From Polychytrium aggregatum (taxonomy: Eukaryota > Chytridiomycota > Chytridiomycetes > Polychytriales), in NCBI RefSeq assembly GCF_025602895.1, contig NW_026516369.1, positions 1 through 64,000 of the forward strand: a stretch of 64,000 bases of DNA. Reading direction: 5' to 3'. Every line of letters begins with the position of its first letter. The stretch's first letter is position 1. The position numbers and the translations under genes were made by a program. The notes under the pieces are model-generated. The model ran no database searches, was not told where the DNA came from, and was given only the letters and a program-made list of their open reading frames with translations. Shown here in pieces: positions 1 to 46,632 of the stretch.

Positions 1-2831
<2,831 letters not shown>

Positions 2832-4797: not shown

Positions 4798-7700
4798 ATG
4801 TCAAAGTACTCGCAAGAATACCACAATCTAACGCTGACCATATATGAGGCAAAGAATCTCGAGTACGGCGGCCAGAGTCTGGCCAAAGAGGACGAGACCT
4901 TTTGCAGCATCCTCATCCAGCGGCGCCTTCGGGAAGGCGAGATCGCCGATCTGTCGGCAACCTCGGGCCCAAAGCCGTCAGGAACAGGCTCACTCAACAA
5001 GCGCAGGTCGACGCGTCAAAACGACGCCGATGCTGGCGGCAGCGCCCTCGAGTCCACCGTGAGCGAGCAAAGGAGCAGCCCCAATATCGTCGCTGCCGAG
5101 GGGCGGTCCAGAAGTGCGCTCCTGGAAATCGGCAATTCTTCCACAGGCAATCTGGCGGTCCCATCTCCGGGAGGAACCCATCGAAGCTCCGCAAGTGGCA
5201 TCAGCGGATTTGCCCGGCGACTGTCGTCCAATATTTCAGGGTCCATGTCACGCAAAGATCTTGAAGGCGATGTTGGCGACGAAGTCAAGGCCCGGGCCGT
5301 CACAGGAAAGGCCCCGGTGTGGGCTGAGGAGTTCCATTTCGATCTGGACGAGCGCTTCCATGCCATCATCAGTAAGTATCGGCAATCTTGTGCACTACTC
5401 CTTCGGCTGCTAGAGACGTCGCCCTCGACTTTGCGCACTGAAGGAGTGTTCCATAAACTTGTTGTCGACTTTGATCCTCTATTTTGCTTTTGATCATCGG
5501 CCTTCTTCGATCCTTTGATTTTCCTTCGATCTTCGGCCTCCTTTCGATCATCGGCTGCCCACCTCCACCCTCCGTACTTGGTCACAATAACATCGCTCCA
5601 TTTGCTTGAATGGCCTCCTTTCATTCTACGTCGCTTGATATCCCGATAATAAGGGATGTCAGCGTGCGCTGGCACAATATCCCCGATTCATGTGCCACGA
5701 TAGATCTTGCACTCGTGTTTATTGCTGTCTGGCGTCGCACCGATTTTGTAAACGGCGCCTCAGTAACGAACGCCATGTGTCCACCTTGACCTCGCCCCCT
5801 TCAAACCGCTGATGCTTCGTCGCCATAGTTCAAATCAAGAAGTCAAACGTCATCGGTCGCTCAACTGTCGTCGGCAAAATCACTCTTCCGGCAATATGCC
5901 TCGAGCCCAACGGGAAGCTTCAGGAAGACTGGTACGCTCTTCAGTCCGAAGAGGAGGCTAATCAAGGCAGCGTGGCAGCAGCAAAATCCATTCATCGCGA
6001 GCACACCTTCCTCGAGCGCACATTTTTATCACCGACGCTCTGCTATCAATGCCGTGGTGTCCTCTGGAGCATCATGGGCCAGTCCAACTACAAATGCGAC
6101 TTTTGTGGAGTATCCTGCCACCACGACTGTCGATCATTCATTCCATCCAACTGCGGCTCGGTCGGATCTATACGTATTGGATACATATACTGTCGTGAGC
6201 GTATTTTGGTAATGCCTTATTTTCGAACTCGACTGGAACGACCCATACTCACAGGATAGCATCGAATTGTTGCGGCATAGTTGAAGCGGCGCCCCCTCTT
6301 TTATGACGCCTCACTCGATCTCGATGCTGATGCGTGCCGTTTTTTTGCCTTGGCCCTGACTCGACCGAACAACAATGCATCGCATCCGACTGTGGCACGA
6401 TCTATCTCTCCGAACAATACCACCTAGCCCATTAGTCAATACGGTCGCCTCAAAGATCTAATCCTTGCAGGCGACTATGTTGCGCTGGGTCTCCTGAGTC
6501 GGGTCTGTGATGATCGCGATGTCATGGCCAAGCACGTGGTTAACATTGCCGATGGTGCCCACAGGCTTGGTGCCTTCCTCACCAAGCTTTGTGTGATGGA
6601 GATTCAGTCCACGAAGGATCCCAATGTGATCTTCCGCGGGAATAGGTAAGGCTCGGTGTGAACAGTGACGGTGGGACGCTGGGGTATCTGATACATAAGT
6701 TCATGTCATAGGCTGAGGAGGATGGCGGTTTCACCATCTCCCCTGTCTGCTGTTTCGGCGTACAATCGCCAATGATACAGAGAGCATGTGTGTATCTGGT
6801 ATCTTACCAAGGGCAGAGTCAGAGCATATTTACTGATCGCTTTGTCTAACTTGATCGGATTGAAGCCTTTCAGCTAAACTCGTTGACGCCATGATGAAGC
6901 ATGTTGGAAAGGAGTACCTCTTCGAAACCCTCTCTCCGGTCCTATTGAATATTATCCAAGAGGATCGAGACTGTGAGATCGATCCGATGAAAGTCGAAAA
7001 GGAAATCTTGGACAGTCCAGAGAGAATCCAAGAGCGGCAGAAGGCACTGATGGGTTCGTATACAGATATCCGTCGAAGCATATGTATCTGATCATTTTGT
7101 CGAGCCAGACATCCGATTCGCCGATGCAAAATGAGCATCCACGCAAGATGAATCAGAAGGAGACCCTGGTCCGCCGTGGCACTTATTGATTTGCTGAAAT
7201 CAGCGATTCGAATCGCTCGCTGTTCATTGTGGCATGATCACTGTCCCTCTCCTTTCATTGTTTGCTTGTGGAGCGAATTTTGACGCTGCCCATCTCCTGT
7301 TACGCCTTTGGCTCACTGCAAATCGAGCAGCACTGATGTACTGACTGAATCGCTTGATACTTCCCTATCAGAACATGTTCAGGCAGTCCTGGACGCAATC
7401 ATCCAAACAGCCGGAACTTGTCCCGTGCTCATCAAGCATGTCCTCGGGTCGATATACACCGAAGCAAAGCTCCAGTTCCCAGGCGACGTTATTGCTCCCT
7501 ATACCGCCGTAACTGCGTTTCTGTTTCTGCGGTTTTTCACACCGGCCCTCCTGGGACCGAAGCTTTGGGGCCTGGTTACTGTCCAGCCATCCGACACGGG
7601 CATGCGCACTCTGACCCTGGTTTCCAAGTGCATCCAACAGTGCTCCAATATGCTTCCGTTTGATGGAAAAAAGGAGCCCTTTATGGAGCCTCTGAACCAA

Positions 7701-9404
7701 GTGGTGTCAGCCAGCATCGGCAAGGTCAAGGACTTTGTGGATGTACTCCTGGCTCCCAAGAAAAAGAAAAAGGGCAAGGGCTCGACGTTCAGTCTCAAAC
7801 GGTCGTCCCGAGACAACATGGGCTCGGGCCACGTCCACACGAGCTCCGGCCCTGCTAATACGGGATCGGGACTCAGTAATCCGGCTCAAGTATCCACGGC
7901 ATCGGCCTCGGACGACGATGATGGCGGAGAGCGCGATGGCTGCTGCTTCGGCTTCTGCGCCGGAAGCCGAAACAAGGTGTCCAAACTGGCCCCAAAGCCA
8001 ATCGGCAAGGCTGCAGACGGCCACAAATCCGAAGCAAGCGTAGCCTCCATCGGCTCAAGAAGACAGAGCCAGTACGGCGACATTGACCACCAGTTCGTGG
8101 CCAACATCGATGTTGAGAAGCACTTTGCAGCCATATGCCGCATCTTCAGCCGCTGCCAGACCAAAATGGCCGAGGCAGCCGAGACAGACGCAGAGAAGGC
8201 TGCAGCCCGTCTCGCAGCGGAGATCGTCAACGAGCTCGAGATCCAGTCTGGCGCCAAAGAGCGTCAGAAGCAGCGTGAAGAGCAGCTTGTCAAGTTGGGA
8301 CTGTCTCCCGAACGAAGGAAGGACCAGGCCGCGGGCACGAATCCAAAACGGATGTCCAAGCTCGGTCAAATGGGCATTTCTGGCTTTGACGTTGCTTCGT
8401 CATCGAAACGCAGCAGTAGTATCCCTCCCCAGTCCAACGGAGATGGTAAGGATGCCGACAATGCCAACGCTGACACCGCTGCCGACGACGACGACGATGA
8501 CGATGCTGATGGCAAAAATGAAAGTGCCGCTGCCGAAGAAGAAGAAGACAACGACGACGACGACAACGACGACGACGACGACGACGGCGGCTCCAAGTCC
8601 GCCGGATGCGGGACCAATGCAGACGAAGTCCAATCCAGCCAATGCAGCGAGATTCGGGCCCGTGCCCCAACCCGAAACAACCACGGCCGTGCCGTGGCCA
8701 GCGGCATCGCTTTGTACATCAACCGCCCGTCCACCTCGATGGATGGTGGCTCGCTCACCGGCATATCGGATGATGGGCGGCAGGCGTATCTCGATGCCGT
8801 GGAAAAGTCCCGGCCCATGACCGCGAGCTCCAAGACCAGCAATACCATGCTCTCGAATGCTAGCATGAGAAGCGGCCCTGTTCCGAGGGAAGTGGATTCG
8901 GTGCTTGGCAACGTCGTCGAGTCCCCGATGGAAAGTGGCAACGACCAGCCAGAAGACTTTATCAGCTACTACACCGATAGCAACCGAAACTCGGTCGACC
9001 TCCGTAGCGACGATGGATATCATGTTGTCGAAAGACAGAACTTGGCATCTCGCATCGGCCGCCAGTCTCTGTCGGGCGCCGCACCCTTTCGCTTCGTTGG
9101 TGAAGCCGGGAGGAACAGCACCGACGATATGTCTTCTCGCTCAGCACGGATGAGCCACCACGGCCCTCCGGCCGTCAACCGGGTCGTTCAGGCCCACCGC
9201 CAGGCTGCCGATAGTGTATACAGCATGGCGGAATCCTCGCAGTCTCTGTCGCTGGCCGACGGCCGGCGCTACGACTCGGTCCAGTCCTGCCAGACAAACA
9301 CCACAGTGGCCTCTCAGGCGTACTCGACAATGATGAGCTCGACGATGATGGACTCGACAAGAGATGTCAATGACCAGCTGGAACGAAACAACAGCGTGCT
9401 GTAG
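4798..9404 (+). CDS. C2-C1-RasGAP domain GTPase-activating protein
   Basis: Predicted Ras GTPase-activating protein of 1130 residues. Five exons close in phase: 4798-5371, 5829-6208, 6428-6645, 6866-7053, 7372-9404. N-terminal C2-type beta-sandwich strands are followed by a C1 zinc finger (HREHTF...CYQC...CDFC...HHDC, exon 2) and then the RasGAP domain. The arginine-finger loop reads VIFRGNS across the exon 3/4 junction. The second signature, FLRFFTPALLGP, is in exon 5. Together these indicate stimulation of Ras-type GTP hydrolysis at membranes. The long C-terminus is Ser-rich and disordered, with Lys- and Asp-rich blocks; an acidic run lies at about 8490-8590. The fourth intron uses a weak GTTCGT donor, so that junction is the least certain. 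C1 suggests diacylglycerol or lipid recruitment, which is inference. Confidence 0.9.
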
Positions 9405-9521: not shown

Positions 9522-12290
9522 TTGCTGTCGCCGCAGCAGTGCCTGTTCATGTCCTTCCGTTTTTCTGCCAGCGCTCTTGGCCTGCGTTCCATCGCCCTGC
9601 ACCATCCCGGGCTCACTGTTCTCTCGGTCTGGCCCGGCTTGGTTGGTTCCTGGATCATGTTCACCACAAGCATGCCCACTTTCCTCGACCCAGCCATCCC
9701 CGGCCCAGCCATTCCCGGCCCAGCCATCCCCGGCCCAGCCAGCCTCGCAGACGCTGCTGCCCAAGAGGATCGGATGCTCGTGGCCTTGAGCACCTACGCT
9801 TTCCAAGACTATATCGACAGCGTCCCAGTCCTGCTCCGTCTGCAGTCCCTCTCGAGGCGGTTCGGAGCAATCTTTGGCAGTCGCTGGCAATGGAGGCGCA
9901 TGTTCCAGCGCTTTTTCCGCCTGCCACCGGACTTTGATATCGACGACATTGATTATCGCAGCGTCGTCTGCGCGGCAGACTCATACTTTGGCCGCCGTGC
10001 CGATGAACCCACCTGGCCGGTCGAACAGGCCCTTTGGCGGACGGTTCAGACCAGCGCAGCGGTCCACGAGCTGGTCCTGGAAATGTGTCGGATCAACAAT
10101 CGGATGTCAACGTTCGTTCAACTTGGCACACACTCTGTGTGCCTGTGCTTCTCCAGAGCCCTCAGCATCCGAATCACCCACAACCTCGATGAGTCGCTCG
10201 TCTTCAGCCCTCCGCTTCGGCTGCATTTCGCCATCGACAGCACACTCAAGCAACTGCCTTATTTCGCCACTGCCCATCTTCATGCCAACGCCGCGCAGCT
10301 GTGTCTTGGGAAGCCTCCCCGAGCAGCCGAAGGCTGGCCGCTTGAGCTGACCGGTCTGGAGCATCTGCATTTTTGCGCCGACGCCTCTTTCCCCACACAG
10401 GTCCTGGACGGGTTCGATAGCTGGCCCCTGATGCCCAACCTCAAGTGTCTCTCGTTCTGGCCGCAGCACCAAGAGGGCAGCGGCACCGTCATCATCAGGT
10501 CCTTCCGAGGGTTCTCGCGTATCTCACCGAGTATCAAGGACCTGGATCTGCGCGGGACCATCATCGAGAGCTTTGAGGGCTTCAGTGCACCCAGTCTCCT
10601 CATTGCGTTTTTGCCGGACCGTCACCCGGACCTCGAGATGCTCTCGCCGGCGCTAGCTCATGCAAAGGAGCTCTACCTCGGCCTGGCTTCTCAAGTCGCT
10701 GATCTTCGCTATCTGGCGTGCTGCTCCCAGCTCGAAGTACTTGCTCCGCCCATGTCGGTTCGATCGCTGGCGGGACTACCAGCGGACATGATGCGTCTCC
10801 AGCAACTGGATCTCAGTGTATGCACGAACCTTACGAACCTTGTGCACATGCCTACTGCTCCGGCACTGCGGGTTCTCAAGATGCCCGGATCGCTTCAATC
10901 CCTCTGGGGCATGTCGGGCGACTTGGTGGGGCTTGAAGAGCTCGACTTGGCCGATTGCGACAAGCTGGTCGATCTCGAGTTCATGGCCACGACGCCCCTC
11001 TTACGACGATTGCTCCTGCCCAAGTCACTCGAGTCGCTGAAGGGAATGCCCCGACTTCTGGACAACCTTGTCGAGTTCGGGATTGCTCAATGCGACAGGC
11101 TGACGGGCTTGGAGCACATGGCTGCAATGCCCCTGGTGAAGATATTGGTTCTGCCAAAGTCTGTGCGGTCGCTTCGTGGAATGCCGACAGCCATGAAGAG
11201 CCTCGTGACCCTCGATCTCCTCCGGTGCGAGGAACTGTCCAGTCTTGAGCACTTGCCAATCGCCCCACGCCTCAAGAATCTCAGGCTGCCCAGATCCACA
11301 GGATCCCTCAAGGAAATGTCGTCACTGAGCAAGAGTCTGATGTGGTTGGACATGGGTCACTGCATAAATGTGGATACATTGAAGCACCTCCCCGAGACTC
11401 CGAAGCTCCTCTCGTTCAGACTGCCCAAGTCGTTGCGTTCCCTGGAAGGCATTGCTCCAAGATTCGAGGTCCTAGTCGAGTTCAATATCAGCACTTGTGA
11501 GCACCTGGATACACTAGAGCACATGCCCTCCCTGCCTGCTCTGAAGGAGCTCAGTCTTCCAGAGTCCATCCGATCTCTCCACGGAATGCCACATATGATG
11601 GAAAGCTTGGTTAAATTGGATCTTAGCAACTGCACAAATCTCACCAGCCTCGAGCACATGGCCAACACACCCCAGCTCACGACCCTCCAGCTACCAAAGT
11701 CGCTTCGGTCACTCTTTGGAATGCCTTCGACTCTGGGCCACCTCGGCGATCTTTCCCTCGGGGCGTGCGAGAATCTCGTCGATCTTGCACACATGGCTCG
11801 GGCGCCGCTGCTCAAGACCCTCGTGCTGCCTGCCTCGCTTGGGTCCCTCGAGGGAATCCCGCCCGAATTGCCAAGGCTGCGATCACTGGACCTGAGCAAA
11901 TGCGGCTCCATCACAAGACTTGAGTACCTGCCCTCTGCCCTCCCGAACCTGGAGTATCTCAAGCTGCCGAAATCGCTAGAGTCGCTTCATGGCCTGCCCT
12001 TGGCCCTGGAAAGCGTCATGCGGCTGGATTTGAGCGGTTGTACTGGGCTCGAAAGTCTGGAGGGCATGCCAGACGTGCCCCAGTTGATTATTCTCAAGCT
12101 ACCTAGATCGCTCCGATCACTGCGAGGTATACGTTCGACTTACGAACATCTTAGACGCCTGGATCTGGGTGAATGTGCTTTGCTGGATGACATACCGCAG
12201 CAGTTACCGACAATCCCACAGGACTGCTGTGTGGTCATGCCGGTGAGTGAGCCCGCAGCTGAGAGAAGGCTCGATGGCGAATCGCAATAG
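9522..12290 (+). CDS. Leucine-rich-repeat array protein, possibly F-box-like N-terminus
   Basis: Single-exon frame of up to 922 codons. The true start may be 9522, 9657 (ATG before a Pro-Gly-Pro-Ala-Ile pentapeptide repeat) or 9774 (MLVALSTYAF), since the first 84 residues look less protein-like. From about residue 400 the protein is a regular array of roughly 45-residue double LRR units. Each follows a pattern like LDLSxCxxLxxLEHM...PxLxxLxLPKSLRSLxGMP, about eleven copies, each with a conserved Cys. This is a solenoid expected to bind protein partners. The region near residues 90-140 is helical with a hydrophobic pattern reminiscent of an F-box, which would make it an SCF adaptor, but that is a guess. 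It follows the RasGAP gene by about 120-370 bp on the same strand. Confidence 0.8.
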   Translation: MLSPQQCLFMSFRFSASALGLRSIALHHPGLTVLSVWPGLVGSWIMFTTSMPTFLDPAIPGPAIPGPAIPGPASLADAAAQEDRMLVALSTYAFQDYIDSVPVLLRLQSLSRRFGAIFGSRWQWRRMFQRFFRLPPDFDIDDIDYRSVVCAADSYFGRRADEPTWPVEQALWRTVQTSAAVHELVLEMCRINNRMSTFVQLGTHSVCLCFSRALSIRITHNLDESLVFSPPLRLHFAIDSTLKQLPYFATAHLHANAAQLCLGKPPRAAEGWPLELTGLEHLHFCADASFPTQVLDGFDSWPLMPNLKCLSFWPQHQEGSGTVIIRSFRGFSRISPSIKDLDLRGTIIESFEGFSAPSLLIAFLPDRHPDLEMLSPALAHAKELYLGLASQVADLRYLACCSQLEVLAPPMSVRSLAGLPADMMRLQQLDLSVCTNLTNLVHMPTAPALRVLKMPGSLQSLWGMSGDLVGLEELDLADCDKLVDLEFMATTPLLRRLLLPKSLESLKGMPRLLDNLVEFGIAQCDRLTGLEHMAAMPLVKILVLPKSVRSLRGMPTAMKSLVTLDLLRCEELSSLEHLPIAPRLKNLRLPRSTGSLKEMSSLSKSLMWLDMGHCINVDTLKHLPETPKLLSFRLPKSLRSLEGIAPRFEVLVEFNISTCEHLDTLEHMPSLPALKELSLPESIRSLHGMPHMMESLVKLDLSNCTNLTSLEHMANTPQLTTLQLPKSLRSLFGMPSTLGHLGDLSLGACENLVDLAHMARAPLLKTLVLPASLGSLEGIPPELPRLRSLDLSKCGSITRLEYLPSALPNLEYLKLPKSLESLHGLPLALESVMRLDLSGCTGLESLEGMPDVPQLIILKLPRSLRSLRGIRSTYEHLRRLDLGECALLDDIPQQLPTIPQDCCVVMPVSEPAAERRLDGESQ

Positions 12291-38250: not shown

Positions 38251-38836
38251 TCAAGATCCTCCTCAATCACCATCCTCTCATTGTTCATTGCAACACTGCA
38301 TGACATAGATATGGAATCGGTGGACAGTGATGCTCCAAGATGCAGACTTCACACATGAGCAAACGGGACACCCTCACGACTCCATTTGTCAGCGTAGTAT
38401 GCGATGGCTTGCGTCCAATGGAGACACATGCGATTCAACAAATCCCCTCCGAGTGAAGACCTCCGGTCGCTCTCCGGTATCCACAATCGACATGCACTGC
38501 TCAAAGTACCGAGCAAACCGCTGCCTCCTGGGACTGGGTGCATAGCCCTTGCCCTGTCGCCATGACGCAGTGCCAGCGGTGAATGGTGCTCTTGGACACT
38601 GAATATGGCCAGGGTGCGATGGTATTGGATAGCAAATTATTCGGTCAATGACCAAAACCAGGGTATCCCGTTTCTTTCTGGATCGGCTGTAATACACAAA
38701 ATCGACGTCAACGTATCACCCACAGTTATGGACCTATATTCAGCAGACAATACCAGTTCATATCCACTGATCTCTCGACCAGCAGCGCGACGAGTTTCGA
38801 GACTCAAGCCCCAAGGGCGGGTGCCATTCACAGAAA
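38251..38836. other. Intergenic region containing a deleted Fanzor-family element
   Basis: Between the membrane protein start and the API5-like stop. Apart from the mobile element at 38341-38691, no gene is seen. Confidence 0.6.
38341..38691 (-). mobile_element. Internally deleted (MITE-like) derivative of the Fanzor transposon
   Basis: About 351 bp. The right end (38655-38691) reads inward on the - strand as TACAG...AAACGGGATACCCTGG, matching the right end of the 43058-46446 element. The left end begins TGCAG...AAACGGGACACCC, with a mutated TA. Inside are a fragment equivalent to the Fanzor RuvC-II/WRQGKGY region joined directly to the C-terminal tail (SIVDTGERPEVFTRR). The segment coding the zinc finger is missing. 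It also keeps the conserved noncoding motif seen after the Fanzor stop. Confidence 0.82.
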
Positions 38837-42507: not shown

Positions 42508-42733
42508 GCCGATCGATCTGGAACACTCAGGCGCTGTCGTTTGCAGACCCCAAAGCACTTGAATCCGCCACTCAATGTCGCCGTCACGTGTCGCTTCTCA
42601 TGTGGCAGAAGCGTGGCGCGATCGATGCTGCGCACCAGTCCGTCGCACAATGCGGGTTCGCAAACGCCCATTTTCTCATGGACCATGCACAACCTGGAGC
42701 GGCACTGGGTAATGAAGGAACAGGGCAAAAAAA

Positions 42734-43059
42734 TACACTGTATTCAGAGGGGTTCGGGACACTCACATGCCAGCGTAGTATGTGATGGCATGCGTCAAGC
42801 TGAGCCATAAGAAGGGCGATGTGGATGGCGACGGTGCGCTTGAATTGCTCAAAGTACCGAGCACACCGCTGCCTCCTGGGACTGGATGCATAGCCCTTGC
42901 CTTGACGCCATGACGCAATGACAAAGGCGATAACGACCTCGGTCTCCTTTGGCATACTGCATGGCCATGGTAGCGATGGGTGTGTGTATTCAGGTCCCAG
43001 CAAACAGAAACTCCCATGGCTCAAACCAGGGTGTCCCGTTTCGTTCTGGGTACGCTGTA
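42734..43059 (-). mobile_element. Second MITE-like deleted Fanzor-family element, abutting the full element
   Basis: 326 bp bounded by TA at both ends. The left end TACACTGTATTCAG...CGGGACA and right end (- strand) TACAGCGTACCCAG...AACGGGACACCCTGG match the full element's inverted repeats. Inside is a remnant of the Fanzor coding region (EVVIAFVIASWRQGKGYASSPRRQR...YFEQF). The zinc finger and everything upstream are deleted. Its right TA (43058-43059) is also the left TA of the Fanzor element, so one inserted at the edge of the other. It sits 226 bp upstream of the API5-like start codon. Confidence 0.88.
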
Positions 43060-43087
43060 CACTTTATTCAGAAAAAAACGGGACAAT
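43058..43087 (+). repeat. Left terminal inverted repeat of the Fanzor element, with polyA signal
   Basis: Pairs with 46413-46446. On the - strand it reads GAATAAAGTG, so it also supplies an AATAAA polyadenylation signal about 90 bp after the Fanzor stop codon. Confidence 0.8.
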
Positions 43088-43157
43088 ATAGCCGTTTCCA
43101 TGAACATGTAGTATGTGCTGTGCTTGCGTCAAGCAAAGCCACAAGAAATAAAACAGA
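43088..43157 (-). ncRNA. Candidate guide-RNA (fRNA/omega-RNA-like) region after the Fanzor stop
   Basis: Inference. In characterised Fanzor loci the guide RNA overlaps the 3' end of the gene and the element end. Here the - strand contains a perfect small hairpin, GCTTG-ACG-CAAGC (about 43122-43134). It also has a block resembling GACGCAWGCCATCRCATACTACGCTG that is conserved in both deleted copies (38390-38414, 42771-42797). The exact RNA boundaries cannot be seen from sequence. Confidence 0.35.
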
Positions 43158-45611
43158 TCACTTTGGCAGCCTCCGAGTGAAGACCGCCGGTCGCTCTCCG
43201 ATCTCCACAATCGACCTGCATACTGTGATCATGTTGCGCGCCGCATTGACGTCGCGATTCCACACTGTCCGGCAGCTGGGATTCTTGCAGCTCCTGACAA
43301 AGTGGGAATTCGCAACACTGGGCGCATCGAGTCCTTCCAACCGAACTGGCTCCAGGCACTTGGAGCATACTTGCGAGGTGTTGAACTCGTTCGTCGAGGC
43401 CACCTTGACGCTTCCATGATGGTGATTGGGACGGCGTCGGTGGTGCTCGAATTGCTCAAAGTACTGAGCAAACCGCTGCCTCCGAGGGCTGGATGCATAG
43501 CCCTTGCCCTGTCGCCATGATGCATTGCCAAAGGCGATCACCACATCGGTCCGTATCGGGGCGTGCTTCAGGACGGCCTTGCACATCTTGTCGACGGCCA
43601 CTTGGCGCCTCTTGTGGCCCGTGAAGCGATGGTGACGGGCCTTCTTGCCAAGGTGGAAGTCGAGCTGCACTCGCAGCTCCGGTCGCAGGACATGGGTGAG
43701 ATGGACCTTGAAAGCCTCCGAGGACGACACCTTGGGCGAGGGGGTGGTCGACATCCAAGTCTCGATGCTGAGTCGATACTTCATGATATTGTGCCACTTG
43801 GTGTTGGACGTATGGCCACACATGTGCTGGTAGTGGCCATTGGAGAATGAGACCACCTCGTCTTGGTGGCCCGGTGCTTGGATGACCGCCGTGAAGATGG
43901 AGCCGACTCCAGGATCGATGCCAATCCAAGTGGTGCGGTTGGGGTCTGGGTCGCCAATGTGCTCCTGGATACGCTGCTCGGCAGTCGGAGGAGGCTCGAT
44001 GGTCTCGGTGCGATTGGTTCGACGCACAAACTTGACGAGGCCGATGGTGCATCCAATGCCATCGGTGCTGATCTCGTAGTTGAACAGCTTCTTGTTCACG
44101 TCCCGCTCTTGGAAGAGGGAACTACGCAGCTTGAAGCAACTGCGCCAGAGACGATCCTGGTTGTTGATGCCGTCATCACCTTCATCCTTGAGCTTGTCCC
44201 GGGTGAGTCCAAGACGATGTTCGGTGTCAAGGAGTTGCCAGAGAGTGACGGTGTCAATCTTGACATACTTGGCCGTGGCAGTGCACAGAGGAACCATCGT
44301 GCACACGGCCGGAGGAGTGTCGACGGCGAGCTGCTTGAGGGCCCACTTGAGTCTGGATGCCAGCTTGTTGATCTTGGACTTGGTGGTGCCGAGCTCAGAC
44401 TTGGCCTTGGTGAACCTCTTGTCGTCGGAGGGAATGCCTCGGGCAGTGAGCTCGTCCAGCTTGGCCTGGCGCTGCAGCTCGGTGACTCGGAGGGCGGGCA
44501 TGTCACAGTCGATCCACTTGTGGACATTGTCGACCATCTTGTCTCGGGCGAGGATTCTCACATGGTGTGAGAGGCGATGGAGGGCCCGGAAGCGGTCCTG
44601 GTCGCTGCTGTACCGAAACTCGTCCAGGACGTGGCCAAAGTCTGGATAGAGGAACTCGAGATCGGCCTTGGGTGGAGTCTGCCCTGGTTTCTCGAAGAGC
44701 TCGAGACAGGCCTCGATGGCGTCGTGCTTATGCTTGTTGGCTGGGAAGACGGCAGCGCAGAAGCGGCGAAGGAGTCGCCAGTAGGCCAGGTCGAGGTGGG
44801 TGGTGCAGTTGGTAGCATAGGCATTGACAGCCAGGGTGAGAAGCTGACTGTGAGCACCATCAGGCAGACGAGGGGCCGGAGGCAGGTCTGCGTGCCGAGT
44901 GGTCTGGTAGATGCCAAAGGAAACAACCAACTGCTCGTTGTACTGCTCATTGTCCCCGGTCGGCGAGAGGGCACCGGCCTCGACAATCGTGAAGCATTGG
45001 CGGATGAATGCAGGTGTGGACTTGGAAATGACGGGGACGGGAAGATCCTGCTCGATGCACCGGAGGATGTGCAGGTTGAGCAGCCTGGATGCCTCGAACT
45101 GGATCTGGGTCATGGCCTCGACGGTGGCCTGGATCTTGTCGCGGAGAGCGGGATTGAGACAACAGCCATCCATCGTCTGCTTGAAGCAGCTGAACTGAGG
45201 GGCGGATGACCTTCCATCCACGAGTGGGACGACAGAACTCTTGAGGGGGTGATATTCGGGACACCTGTTGGTGTTGCAACGTTCGTGATCGGTACCGTCG
45301 CACTGGCGACATCGCTTGCCGGTACTCGAGGAAGTAGATGGACCAGGCTCGGTGGGATCGACATCCATTGGATCTGCAGAAGCAGTGGTGGTGAGCGACG
45401 GAGCAACAGACGACCAAGCATGCGTGGGGTCAGAATACGAACCAGAGACAGGCTCCGACTGTGACTTGGCTTTCTTGGGCCTGGGTGGCCGAGGCTGGCC
45501 ATCACCGGTACCCTTGCGCTTCGGAGGCATGGGGGCAGAGGATGCTGGATGCCTGCCAGTGGTACTGGTCAGAGCAGAGACTTTTTTATCGTACAATGGC
45601 GCGATGATCAA
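43158..45611 (-). CDS. Fanzor protein (eukaryotic TnpB-like RNA-guided endonuclease)
   Basis: Uninterrupted 817-codon frame without introns, unlike almost every neighbour. The N-terminus has basic clusters (MPPKRK, RPPRPKKAK) that look like nuclear localisation signals, and a Cys cluster CRQCDG...CNTNRCP. RuvC-I: WIGIDPGVGSIFTAV (catalytic Asp). The usual RuvC-II position reads VVIAFGNASW without Glu. The Glu in ASTNEFNTSQVCSKC sits where Fanzors place their relocated catalytic Glu. The zinc finger is CSKC...CKNPSC and RuvC-III is NRDVNAARNM. All nuclease residues expected for an active Fanzor are therefore present. Length and mariner context suggest the Fanzor1 group. Start: the first ATG after the TATA box is 45611; an internal Met at 45530 (MPPKRK) is an alternative giving 790 residues. 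Confidence 0.93.
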   Translation of the reverse strand: MIIAPLYDKKVSALTSTTGRHPASSAPMPPKRKGTGDGQPRPPRPKKAKSQSEPVSGSYSDPTHAWSSVAPSLTTTASADPMDVDPTEPGPSTSSSTGKRCRQCDGTDHERCNTNRCPEYHPLKSSVVPLVDGRSSAPQFSCFKQTMDGCCLNPALRDKIQATVEAMTQIQFEASRLLNLHILRCIEQDLPVPVISKSTPAFIRQCFTIVEAGALSPTGDNEQYNEQLVVSFGIYQTTRHADLPPAPRLPDGAHSQLLTLAVNAYATNCTTHLDLAYWRLLRRFCAAVFPANKHKHDAIEACLELFEKPGQTPPKADLEFLYPDFGHVLDEFRYSSDQDRFRALHRLSHHVRILARDKMVDNVHKWIDCDMPALRVTELQRQAKLDELTARGIPSDDKRFTKAKSELGTTKSKINKLASRLKWALKQLAVDTPPAVCTMVPLCTATAKYVKIDTVTLWQLLDTEHRLGLTRDKLKDEGDDGINNQDRLWRSCFKLRSSLFQERDVNKKLFNYEISTDGIGCTIGLVKFVRRTNRTETIEPPPTAEQRIQEHIGDPDPNRTTWIGIDPGVGSIFTAVIQAPGHQDEVVSFSNGHYQHMCGHTSNTKWHNIMKYRLSIETWMSTTPSPKVSSSEAFKVHLTHVLRPELRVQLDFHLGKKARHHRFTGHKRRQVAVDKMCKAVLKHAPIRTDVVIAFGNASWRQGKGYASSPRRQRFAQYFEQFEHHRRRPNHHHGSVKVASTNEFNTSQVCSKCLEPVRLEGLDAPSVANSHFVRSCKNPSCRTVWNRDVNAARNMITVCRSIVEIGERPAVFTRRLPK

Positions 45612-45655
45612 ATCAAGGCGAGATGAGGGAAGAAAGCAGCAGGACGAAGGTGTGG

Positions 45656-45663
45656 CATTTATA
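45656..45663 (-). promoter_or_regulatory. TATA box (TATAAATG) of the Fanzor gene
   Basis: GGGTATAAATGCC on the - strand, 45 bp upstream of the first ATG. It shows that the Fanzor gene carries its own promoter inside the element, independent of the transposase. Confidence 0.65.
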
Positions 45664-45771
45664 CCCGAGAGCAGGAGCCCGTCTTTGCGGGCTGGTTGGG
45701 GAAGTGACCCTGTTCAAAAATCGCCGAGAGGTTCAAGCCAGGGATTTGAGCGTGAAAATGGCGGCGTGATT

Positions 45772-45836
45772 GGAGGGACAACCCCAAATTGGAGGAACTC
45801 AACCCCAAATCGGTGGGGACTCAACCCCAAAGAAGT
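45772..45836. repeat. Tandem repeat at the transposase/Fanzor-promoter junction
   Basis: Three imperfect copies of a unit like aaccccaaatcggtgggactc, each about 20-24 bp. It replaces the transposase C-terminal coding sequence and may mark an internal rearrangement breakpoint. Confidence 0.7.
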
Positions 45837-46375
45837 TCTCGATGGGATTGAAGTCGGGCGAGGCAGGTGGGGTGAAGATCACTGACCATCCTCGGCGCTC
45901 GATGCAGTCCAGGACAGCCATTGTCTTGTGCATGCTGACATTGTCCATCACAATCACAGAGTCATCTGGGAAGCTCGCTCGCTCAAAGAACTCGACCATC
46001 GAGTGTGTCTTGAATGATGTGGGGATGTACATGCGATGCAGCACACCAGTGGTTGATGGCAAATGCAGCCGAGACAGACTTGTGTTTCATGTGATTGCGC
46101 TGACGAAGCGGAGCACCCTTCGGTGAGTATCCGTAGAGAGGGAAAATGGATTTCCTGATCCCTGTCTCATCGACAAAAACGAATCGTCGTGGGTCGATGG
46201 AGCGGACCTGGTCCCTGAACTGTGCCACTCGCTCATCCAGTCGCTTGGACTTGTAGAGGTGTGTTGCCCTCTTGTGTGAGAGACCTGCTCGGTGGATGGC
46301 AGTGTGGCAGAGTGAGAGTGATACTTTCCTCTGGAGAGTGGTTGTGTGGCGAATGGTCATGGCCAGCGCGCGATA
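45799..46375 (-). pseudogene. Broken DD34E (Tc1/mariner-type) transposase
   Basis: Two overlapping frames make up one transposase remnant. Frame 1 (to about 46080) holds the end of the helix-turn-helix region (LSLCHTAIHRAGLSHKRA) and the first catalytic Asp (RRFVFVDETG). Frame 2 (46062-45799) has the second Asp (VIVMDN) and the Glu (PDFNPIENFFG), with 34 residues between them. Lesions visible: about 100 N-terminal residues are absent, the frame shifts near 46065, and after NFFG the frame runs into a repeated ESPPIWGLSSSNLG segment instead of the usual C-terminus. It is therefore very probably inactive. It lies directly between the right inverted repeat and the Fanzor promoter. Confidence 0.88.
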
Positions 46376-46412
46376 ACATTGGGTAACAAAATATTCGATG
46401 AATGGTCAAAAA

Positions 46413-46446
46413 CCCGGGTGTCCCGTTTTTTATTGGATTGCCTGTA
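46413..46446 (-). repeat. Right terminal inverted repeat of the Fanzor element
   Basis: Pairs with 43058-43087 and closely matches the right ends of the copies at 38655-38691 and 43026-43059. It ends in TA at 46445-46446. Confidence 0.8.
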
Positions 46447-46632
46447 AAATGAAAACTCGAGACAGGTGCTTTGTCGCTCGCCAGTAGCAAAGCTCGTTCG
46501 CCAATAGCCAAGGCCGCTCGCCACTGCCCGCGCTGCTCCCCAACACTTGTGCCGTCGCTCGATCCCATGCCCCCCTCAGCCCTCCCTTGGCTCAATGAGC
46601 ACCTCTCTCTTCTGTTATGCAGGCGTGCCGGA

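Follow-up and report, generated by a model that had tools for sequence, protein, structure and literature searches.

In a 64,000-nt stretch of DNA from the chytrid Polychytrium aggregatum (the window; G000:C76:1-64000 in a 64.7-Mb assembly of 418 contigs) lies a copy of a Tc1/mariner-type transposon whose full-length relatives encode both a DD34E transposase and Fanzor1, a eukaryotic homologue of the RNA-guided nuclease TnpB. Where the first 5' base of a member of this family departs from the consensus, it is, at nearly all sites with a known flank, the first base of the host flank lying past that member's own 3' end, and a genome-wide pattern for changed terminal bases at 3' ends found none; the element, both of its genes, constraint on both and a bias to TTA at the 5' boundary are equally plain from the genome. 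On this sequence evidence, Fanzor probably cuts the still-empty allele of an insertion site and repair then copies the element into it (homing), leaving the altered 5' ends as scars, a reading that we hold with moderate confidence.

Of the 1280 candidate places from a protein search of the genome with Fanzor, 55 were scored, each at 93% identity or more, which sets a lower bound on the size of the family. We read 41 copies, namely the window copy and L009–L048, which were the best-scoring Fanzor hits and hence a sample biased to good copies. Orientation throughout follows the sense of the Fanzor gene, which puts the 5' end of the window copy at 46446 and its 3' end at 43058. TA is present at both ends (43058–43059 and 46445–46446), and the inverted repeats have AAAAAACGGGACA in common (43066–43085 and 46419–46438, 85% complementary), as a sequence-only reading of the window had proposed for a unit spanning 43058..46446. 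All 41 copies start at the identical TA and 39 terminate in GTGTA, the exceptions being L037 (GTGTG) and L044 (altered end). The pattern TA-N9-CAATAAAAAACGGGACACC for the 5' end has 295 exact matches in the genome versus 0 for the reversed control. Because the ends thus recur in the 41 copies and genome-wide, the boundaries proposed earlier are not peculiar to the window; differing boundaries in other copies had been named as the ground for abandoning them. Right ends of the form CTGAATAAAGTGTA followed by C number 104 in the genome and, filtered on the tenth flank base, those followed by A/T and by G number 105 and 49 respectively.

In some copies the first bases depart from the consensus 5' end, CAGGCAATCC, and reproduce the copy's own 3' flank, as illustrated by L012 (CAGTAGATC), L024 (CCGGC) and L033 (GTGGC). 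The first base is changed (not C) at 41 of the 295 5' ends. For pairing, we took all 41 of these together with the first 100 of the 295, giving 131 distinct rows, and sought for each a listed right end no more than 4.2 kb away on its own contig and strand; this paired 67. The right ends used were 100 of the 105 A/T rows, the 49 G rows (33 with letters) and 100 of the 104 C rows. Some near-identical contigs appear to be the two haplotypes of one region, so that there are fewer sites than 5' ends. Local copies were added to the paired rows, and rows agreeing in the first nine bases of the flank were merged as haplotype copies, which reduced 85 rows to 71 sites, with L044 excluded from the scar test. 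Twelve distinct sites had a changed first base and a known flank, and in 11 of them this base was the first of the element's own flank (mean of 2.5 under permutation; equalled in 0 of 200,000). Among variants private to one site (15 sites), 21 of 27 changed bases matched the flank (mean 6.8; 0 of 50,000), and a prefix of at least 3 nt was common with the flank at 10 of the 15 (mean 0.56; 0 of 100,000). This private class was picked after the data had been seen and excludes four hexamers common to several sites; the first-base test is independent of it. When shared variants were included, 25 of 51 bases matched over all 30 variant sites (mean 14.1; 8 of 20,000). The replaced stretch keeps its register and never exceeds 9 nt, and at ten clear sites it stops at 2–5 bases that flank and element have in common. 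At several sites, moreover, the two contigs carry identical scars.

We also rejected staggered insertion with a target duplication of greater and variable length, since in most copies a consensus 5' end goes with an unrelated flank and the replaced bases are in register. The converse of scarring is that unusual 5' ends insert where the flank happens to resemble them, with the end picking the flank. This would suit the GTGGC and AGGG ends, each found at two different sites with matching flanks, and the direction is not fixed by any empty allele (none among 15 sites). Most changed ends are nevertheless private to one site, consensus ends show no such matching, and we know of no means by which a TA-specific transposase could match an end to a flank; since most variants are private, we regard such an insertion preference as improbable.

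The 5' boundary is further marked by T at position −1 of its TA, found in 38 of 39 local copies (counted without L028, which is at the same site as L011, and without L044, whose right end is altered), as against 7 of 39 for the mirror position, A after the 3' TA. Genome-wide, T precedes 260 of the 295 5' ends (35 exceptions), the background being 15% of TAs in the window. At occupied sites GTGTA precedes the flank, and hence TTA is absent there, so that the site motif is one that could serve as a target-adjacent motif (TAM) and is destroyed on insertion. In SpuFz1, the Fanzor of Spizellomyces punctatus, CA lies outside the 5' end and the TAM is CATA, according to the part of the report available (PMC10432273). 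The one-sided T bias and this analogy lead us to propose TTA as the putative TAM here. A partial control came from left ends of a sister class, CAGYC, of which there are 23 in the genome: T is at −1 in 13, still above background, versus 61 of 67 paired Fanzor-type ends (Fisher p 0.0006, with haplotype copies uncollapsed). No Fanzor-type right end could be paired with 25 GYC-type left ends among the right ends listed, and none of the 23 CAGYC ends was adjacent to an entry when compared by eye with a second listing of places. As a separate observation, 7 of these 23 ends adjoin uninterrupted transposase genes of 95–96% identity.

The T enrichment in CAGYC ends would also be expected if TTA were a preference of the transposase and Fanzor a conserved passenger, with flank matches due to chance or misassembly. 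One-base matches such as those on contigs C2 and C358 could indeed be chance; set against this are the first-base agreement, which no permutation reached, and the recurrence of the same scars in two contigs. To this explanation we assign very little probability.

Examination of the right end bears on two other sources of breaks or exchange. Five of the 41 copies read differ in their last six bases; of the nine changed bases, two are those of the opposite flank (a single base in L036 and another in L044), with no copied tract. Genome-wide, the pattern TTTTCTGAATANNNHTA for right ends with a changed last base, which demands TTTTCTGAATA and lacks a matching positive count, gave 0 matches. If transposase breaks were the cause, with the left end copying a few bases of the empty homologue before switching to the element-bearing chromatid and Fanzor a passenger in the process, both ends should scar, yet no changed last 3' base was found; the one-sided TTA and the constraint on Fanzor would also go unexplained. 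In favour of such breaks, uninterrupted transposase genes are common (65 of 128 scored hits span residues 1 to 309/310 without a stop, by manual count), and changed first bases occur also in GYC-type ends, several of them beside a transposase gene. We consider this account unlikely. The other source would be ordinary gene conversion, in which an element-bearing and an empty homologue leave short heteroduplex tracts at the boundary without any nuclease of the element. Exchange between homologues is plausible, because the same site can hold elements of different length, as at the L033 site, where both flanks were found around a 3605-bp copy in C223 and a 311-bp copy in C156. Conversion should nonetheless be symmetrical, and neither a changed last 3' base nor a right-end tract from the opposite flank was seen; it has in our view only a slight chance of being correct.

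Other apparently allelic pairs resemble that at L033. The L041 site holds 3633 bp in C398 and ~311 bp in C246, and for L022 the left flank alone was found in C93, with the right end ~1.1 kb further on, so that C223/C156, C398/C246 and C375/C93 each appear to pair a full-length copy with a 311-bp or ~1114-bp derivative. Both lengths recur at other sites and are not accounted for by direct repeats. Template slippage as their origin was dropped because fitting direct repeats were mostly not found: six copies contained none that explained the 311-bp and 1114-bp forms, the exceptions being L013, where an 8-mer would yield 1113 bp, and L037, where a 7-mer would yield 385 bp.

The Fanzor frame, on the minus strand of the window, is unbroken (817 residues from a TTG, 790 from the first ATG at 45530), and Pfam assigns to it a Cas12f1-like TNB domain (PF07282, expectation value (E) 6.7e-9). 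The signatures of Fanzor, DPG and an alternative glutamate (PMC10711439, as far as the available part describes them), are present as GIDPG at 537 and NEFNTS at 714, followed by the cysteines of CSKC at 722 and CKNPSC at 748 and by NRDVNAARN at 758. The earlier proposals of an uninterrupted Fanzor gene with intact RuvC catalytic positions and zinc finger thus held at the level of sequence motifs, as DPG, alternative glutamate, four cysteines and NRD are all there. Among the 41 copies read, the frame is at least 787 residues long in 35, GIDPG and N-x-FNTS are conserved in all, the glutamate in 40, CSKC in 37 and NRDVNAARN in 39. The copy lacking the glutamate, L013, has K at this catalytic position (residue 715), while its 310-residue transposase is uninterrupted. 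A profile of 16 copies had a sole match in the PDB, to SpuFz1 (8gkh), which was weak (E 0.097, positions 741–789), and a single-sequence AlphaFold2 model of the window Fanzor was too poor to use (mean predicted local distance difference test score 38). The mean pairwise ratio of nonsynonymous to synonymous substitution rates (dN/dS) for Fanzor is 0.28 (120 sampled pairs from 39 copies), which shows, as judged from substitutions, purifying selection across the family, and because of this constraint it is reasonable to treat the window Fanzor as a candidate active nuclease.

In the window copy the transposase is split into two broken pieces; Pfam recognizes DDE_3 in each, the upstream one under its cut-off. 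A 310-residue frame is intact in eight of the 41 copies read, full-length sisters of the window copy, and those eight also have the long Fanzor frame; copies with both genes are mostly ~3.74 kb. In L013 the DDE_3 match has E 5.7e-22, and 34 residues separate the second Asp from the Glu (manual count on the translation). The transposase remnant of the sequence-only reading therefore describes the window copy and not the family. Mean pairwise dN/dS is 0.21 (91 pairs, 14 copies), and both Fanzor and transposase seem, by this measure, to have been kept functional while the family spread. With TA ends, terminal inverted repeats and, by way of the full-length copies, a DD34E transposase in the element, together with the Fanzor signatures and PF07282, the earlier assignment to a Tc1/mariner-type element carrying a Fanzor is upheld, and we are virtually certain that this is a mariner with Fanzor1. 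The window copy is a shorter, non-autonomous derivative of the high-copy transposon.

A guide RNA from the 3' region is likely by analogy with SpuFz1, whose guide RNA begins past the stop codon, spans the right-end repeat and extends 14–15 nt into the flank (PMC10432273, available part). Nucleotide diversity in the 98 nt before the 3' TA is 0.032, versus 0.072 at four-fold sites of Fanzor and 0.036 in the 5' untranslated part. The same 98 nt are predicted to form two hairpins (z-score −1.98; 7 of 200 shuffles equally good), and the corresponding region of the small neighbouring element gives z −0.08. Third-position diversity is low in the last 50 codons of Fanzor, which rank 15th among 741 windows. 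An overlap with the guide RNA, the scaffold of which may start inside the gene, could be the reason, although an interior window (1632–1751) is lower still. An Rfam scan of 42600–46600 with E up to 1 gave no match.

Homing could then proceed as follows. The full-length form (~3.74 kb) would supply DD34E transposase and Fanzor1 RNA-guided nuclease, the transposase would insert the element at a TA, and an omega-RNA from the 3' end would take the host DNA just past that end as its guide. Fanzor would cut the still-empty allele, which reads TTA and then the same flank, and, if the cut falls 16–21 nt past the motif as in SpuFz1 (PMC10432273, available part), the left broken end would consist of X-TTA and some flank bases, the right one of flank alone. 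If the element-bearing homologue then serves as template, the flank-only end, being fully homologous, would join cleanly, whereas the left end has a heterologous tail that must first be removed. Wherever copying starts before this removal is complete, flank bases would stay behind in the new 5' end, and the alignment of X-TTA would hold them in register. The element would thereby be installed in the empty allele in the style of a homing endonuclease, and an occupied site would be spared because GTGTA, not TTA, precedes the guide. Incomplete removal of the tail would explain the side, register and length of the replacement as well as the common bases at the switch; the replacement, at most 9 nt, is shorter than the SpuFz1 cut distance. 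In this sense we infer the omega-RNA and its guide, TTA as TAM, the cutting, and an origin of the scars in homing.

Several observations weigh against homing by Fanzor. None of 47 matches for 15 joined sites was an empty site, and a direct view of pre-insertion sequence is thus missing; the match reaching furthest past the TA, 26 nt for L012, is at that element's own 5' end. The variants common to several sites do not track the flank, there is no flank match at C386/C400 and C51, a single base is shared at C2 and C358, and two are shared at C9. At two of the 12 changed-first-base sites (C168/C362 and C334), A replaces T at −1. No partner was found for 23 of the 41 rows with a changed first base; nine of the 23 are GYC-type ends with no known Fanzor-type right end, so that such changes are not limited to Fanzor-type elements. 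The difference between 5' and 3' ends could also stem from selection against right-end scars that recreate TTA beside the guide. As to the guide RNA itself, the fold has z of only −1.21 with 20 nt of flank added, and a two-sided change was seen in just one of 28 consensus pairs.

The kind of element is already known, and the new part is the scars. Comparisons that follow are with the available portions of the reports cited. Mariner elements with Fanzor1, TA target sites and multiple copies were described in 2013, as was SPu-1 of S. punctatus with TA duplications, inverted repeats and 17 full-length copies (PMC3627910); the earlier view that few such loci have been characterized is therefore only partly right. 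Like SPu-1/SpuFz1, the present family has Fanzor1, inverted repeats, TA at both ends (presumed duplications, as in SPu-1), many copies and short gene-less derivatives, and like SpuFz1 a conserved motif outside the 5' end (CATA being the TAM there) and, putatively, a 3' guide RNA (PMC3627910, PMC10432273). The ~2.1-kb SPu-1, by contrast, was found to have no transposase inside its repeats (PMC3627910), whereas the full-length form here has one; here, too, the motif is TTA instead of CATA, and copies are more numerous, judging from the exact 5' ends. The mariners PGv-1 and PUl-1 likewise combine Fanzor1 with a mariner-like transposase in one TA-flanked element, although PGv-1 is single-copy with an additional nuclease gene, and flank-matching ends were not seen in the available description of it (PMC3627910). 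In the Chlamydomonas Fanzor1 Helitrons CRe-1/2/3, as here, the 3' end is intact and the 5' end altered. There, a variable stretch of 7–19 bp is repeated at the 5' junction directly after TTTT, and the 5' ends are truncated, which the authors ascribe to one-ended transposition, unlike the short in-register replacement in P. aggregatum (PMC3627910). We conjecture that those junctions bear the same repair signature as the scars here. For bacteria, TnpB is already known to work as a nuclease for homing and as a gene drive in plasmids (PMC11870625). The IS200/IS605 TnpB systems resemble what we propose in that the guide records the insertion site, a TAM stands at the site and empty copies are cut, and differ in being bacterial with a single-strand transposase, the present element being eukaryotic and cut-and-paste and its evidence consisting of scars only (PMC11870625). 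One search for relatives in viral contigs found nothing.

What Fanzor does biologically was still stated to be unknown in 2023 (PMC10432273, the SpuFz1 report), and we found no earlier report of such scars in the open-licence literature on Fanzor and TnpB homing, judged mostly without full text. A single genome with ~300 ends, a partner transposase and site-specific scars provides a statistical handle on that role, and the family yields a predicted TAM (TTA) and guide for each copy and a pattern to seek in other Fanzor-bearing genomes. We judge it about an even call whether the 5' ends that match their flanks are scars left in nature by a Fanzor that drives the homing of a cut-and-paste transposon, and so a general readout of its activity; if they are, a fixed motif, flank bases, an altered 5' end and an intact 3' end would together report from a genome on Fanzor activity, the side cut and the TAM.

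Features of the Fanzor element and its immediate neighbour in the window
Feature	Position	Strand	Remark
Whole element, 3389 bp counting both TAs	43058..46446	-	boundaries same in other copies
TTA at 5' boundary (site TA plus T at −1), proposed TAM	46445..46447	-	putative role
5' terminal inverted repeat	46419..46444	-	
Broken DD34E transposase (DDE_3)	45799..46360	-	frame broken; ~0.25 kb missing relative to full-length copies
Fanzor1-like gene, 790 residues from first ATG, stop included	43158..45530	-	
Putative omega-RNA scaffold, stop codon to 3' end	43058..43157	-	from fold score and SpuFz1 analogy (PMC10432273, available part)
3' terminal inverted repeat	43060..43085	-	
Presumed guide region, host-side flank past the 3' end	43038..43057	-	putative role
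Non-autonomous relative, 326 bp, both ends present	42734..43059	-	TA common with Fanzor element

Because the 326-bp relative abuts the window copy and shares its TA, the presumed guide of this copy is the relative's 5' end, and it could recur in other copies of the relative. In L012, too, the 3' flank resembles a related element's 5' end (CAGTAGATC...GCGGGACA), so that here again an element may sit directly next to the end of a relative. Elsewhere in the window, 38363–38575 contains fragments akin to the element end and the Fanzor C-terminal region, and the open frames at 7308–9404 and 9522–12290 have RasGAP (PF00616) and leucine-rich repeat matches.

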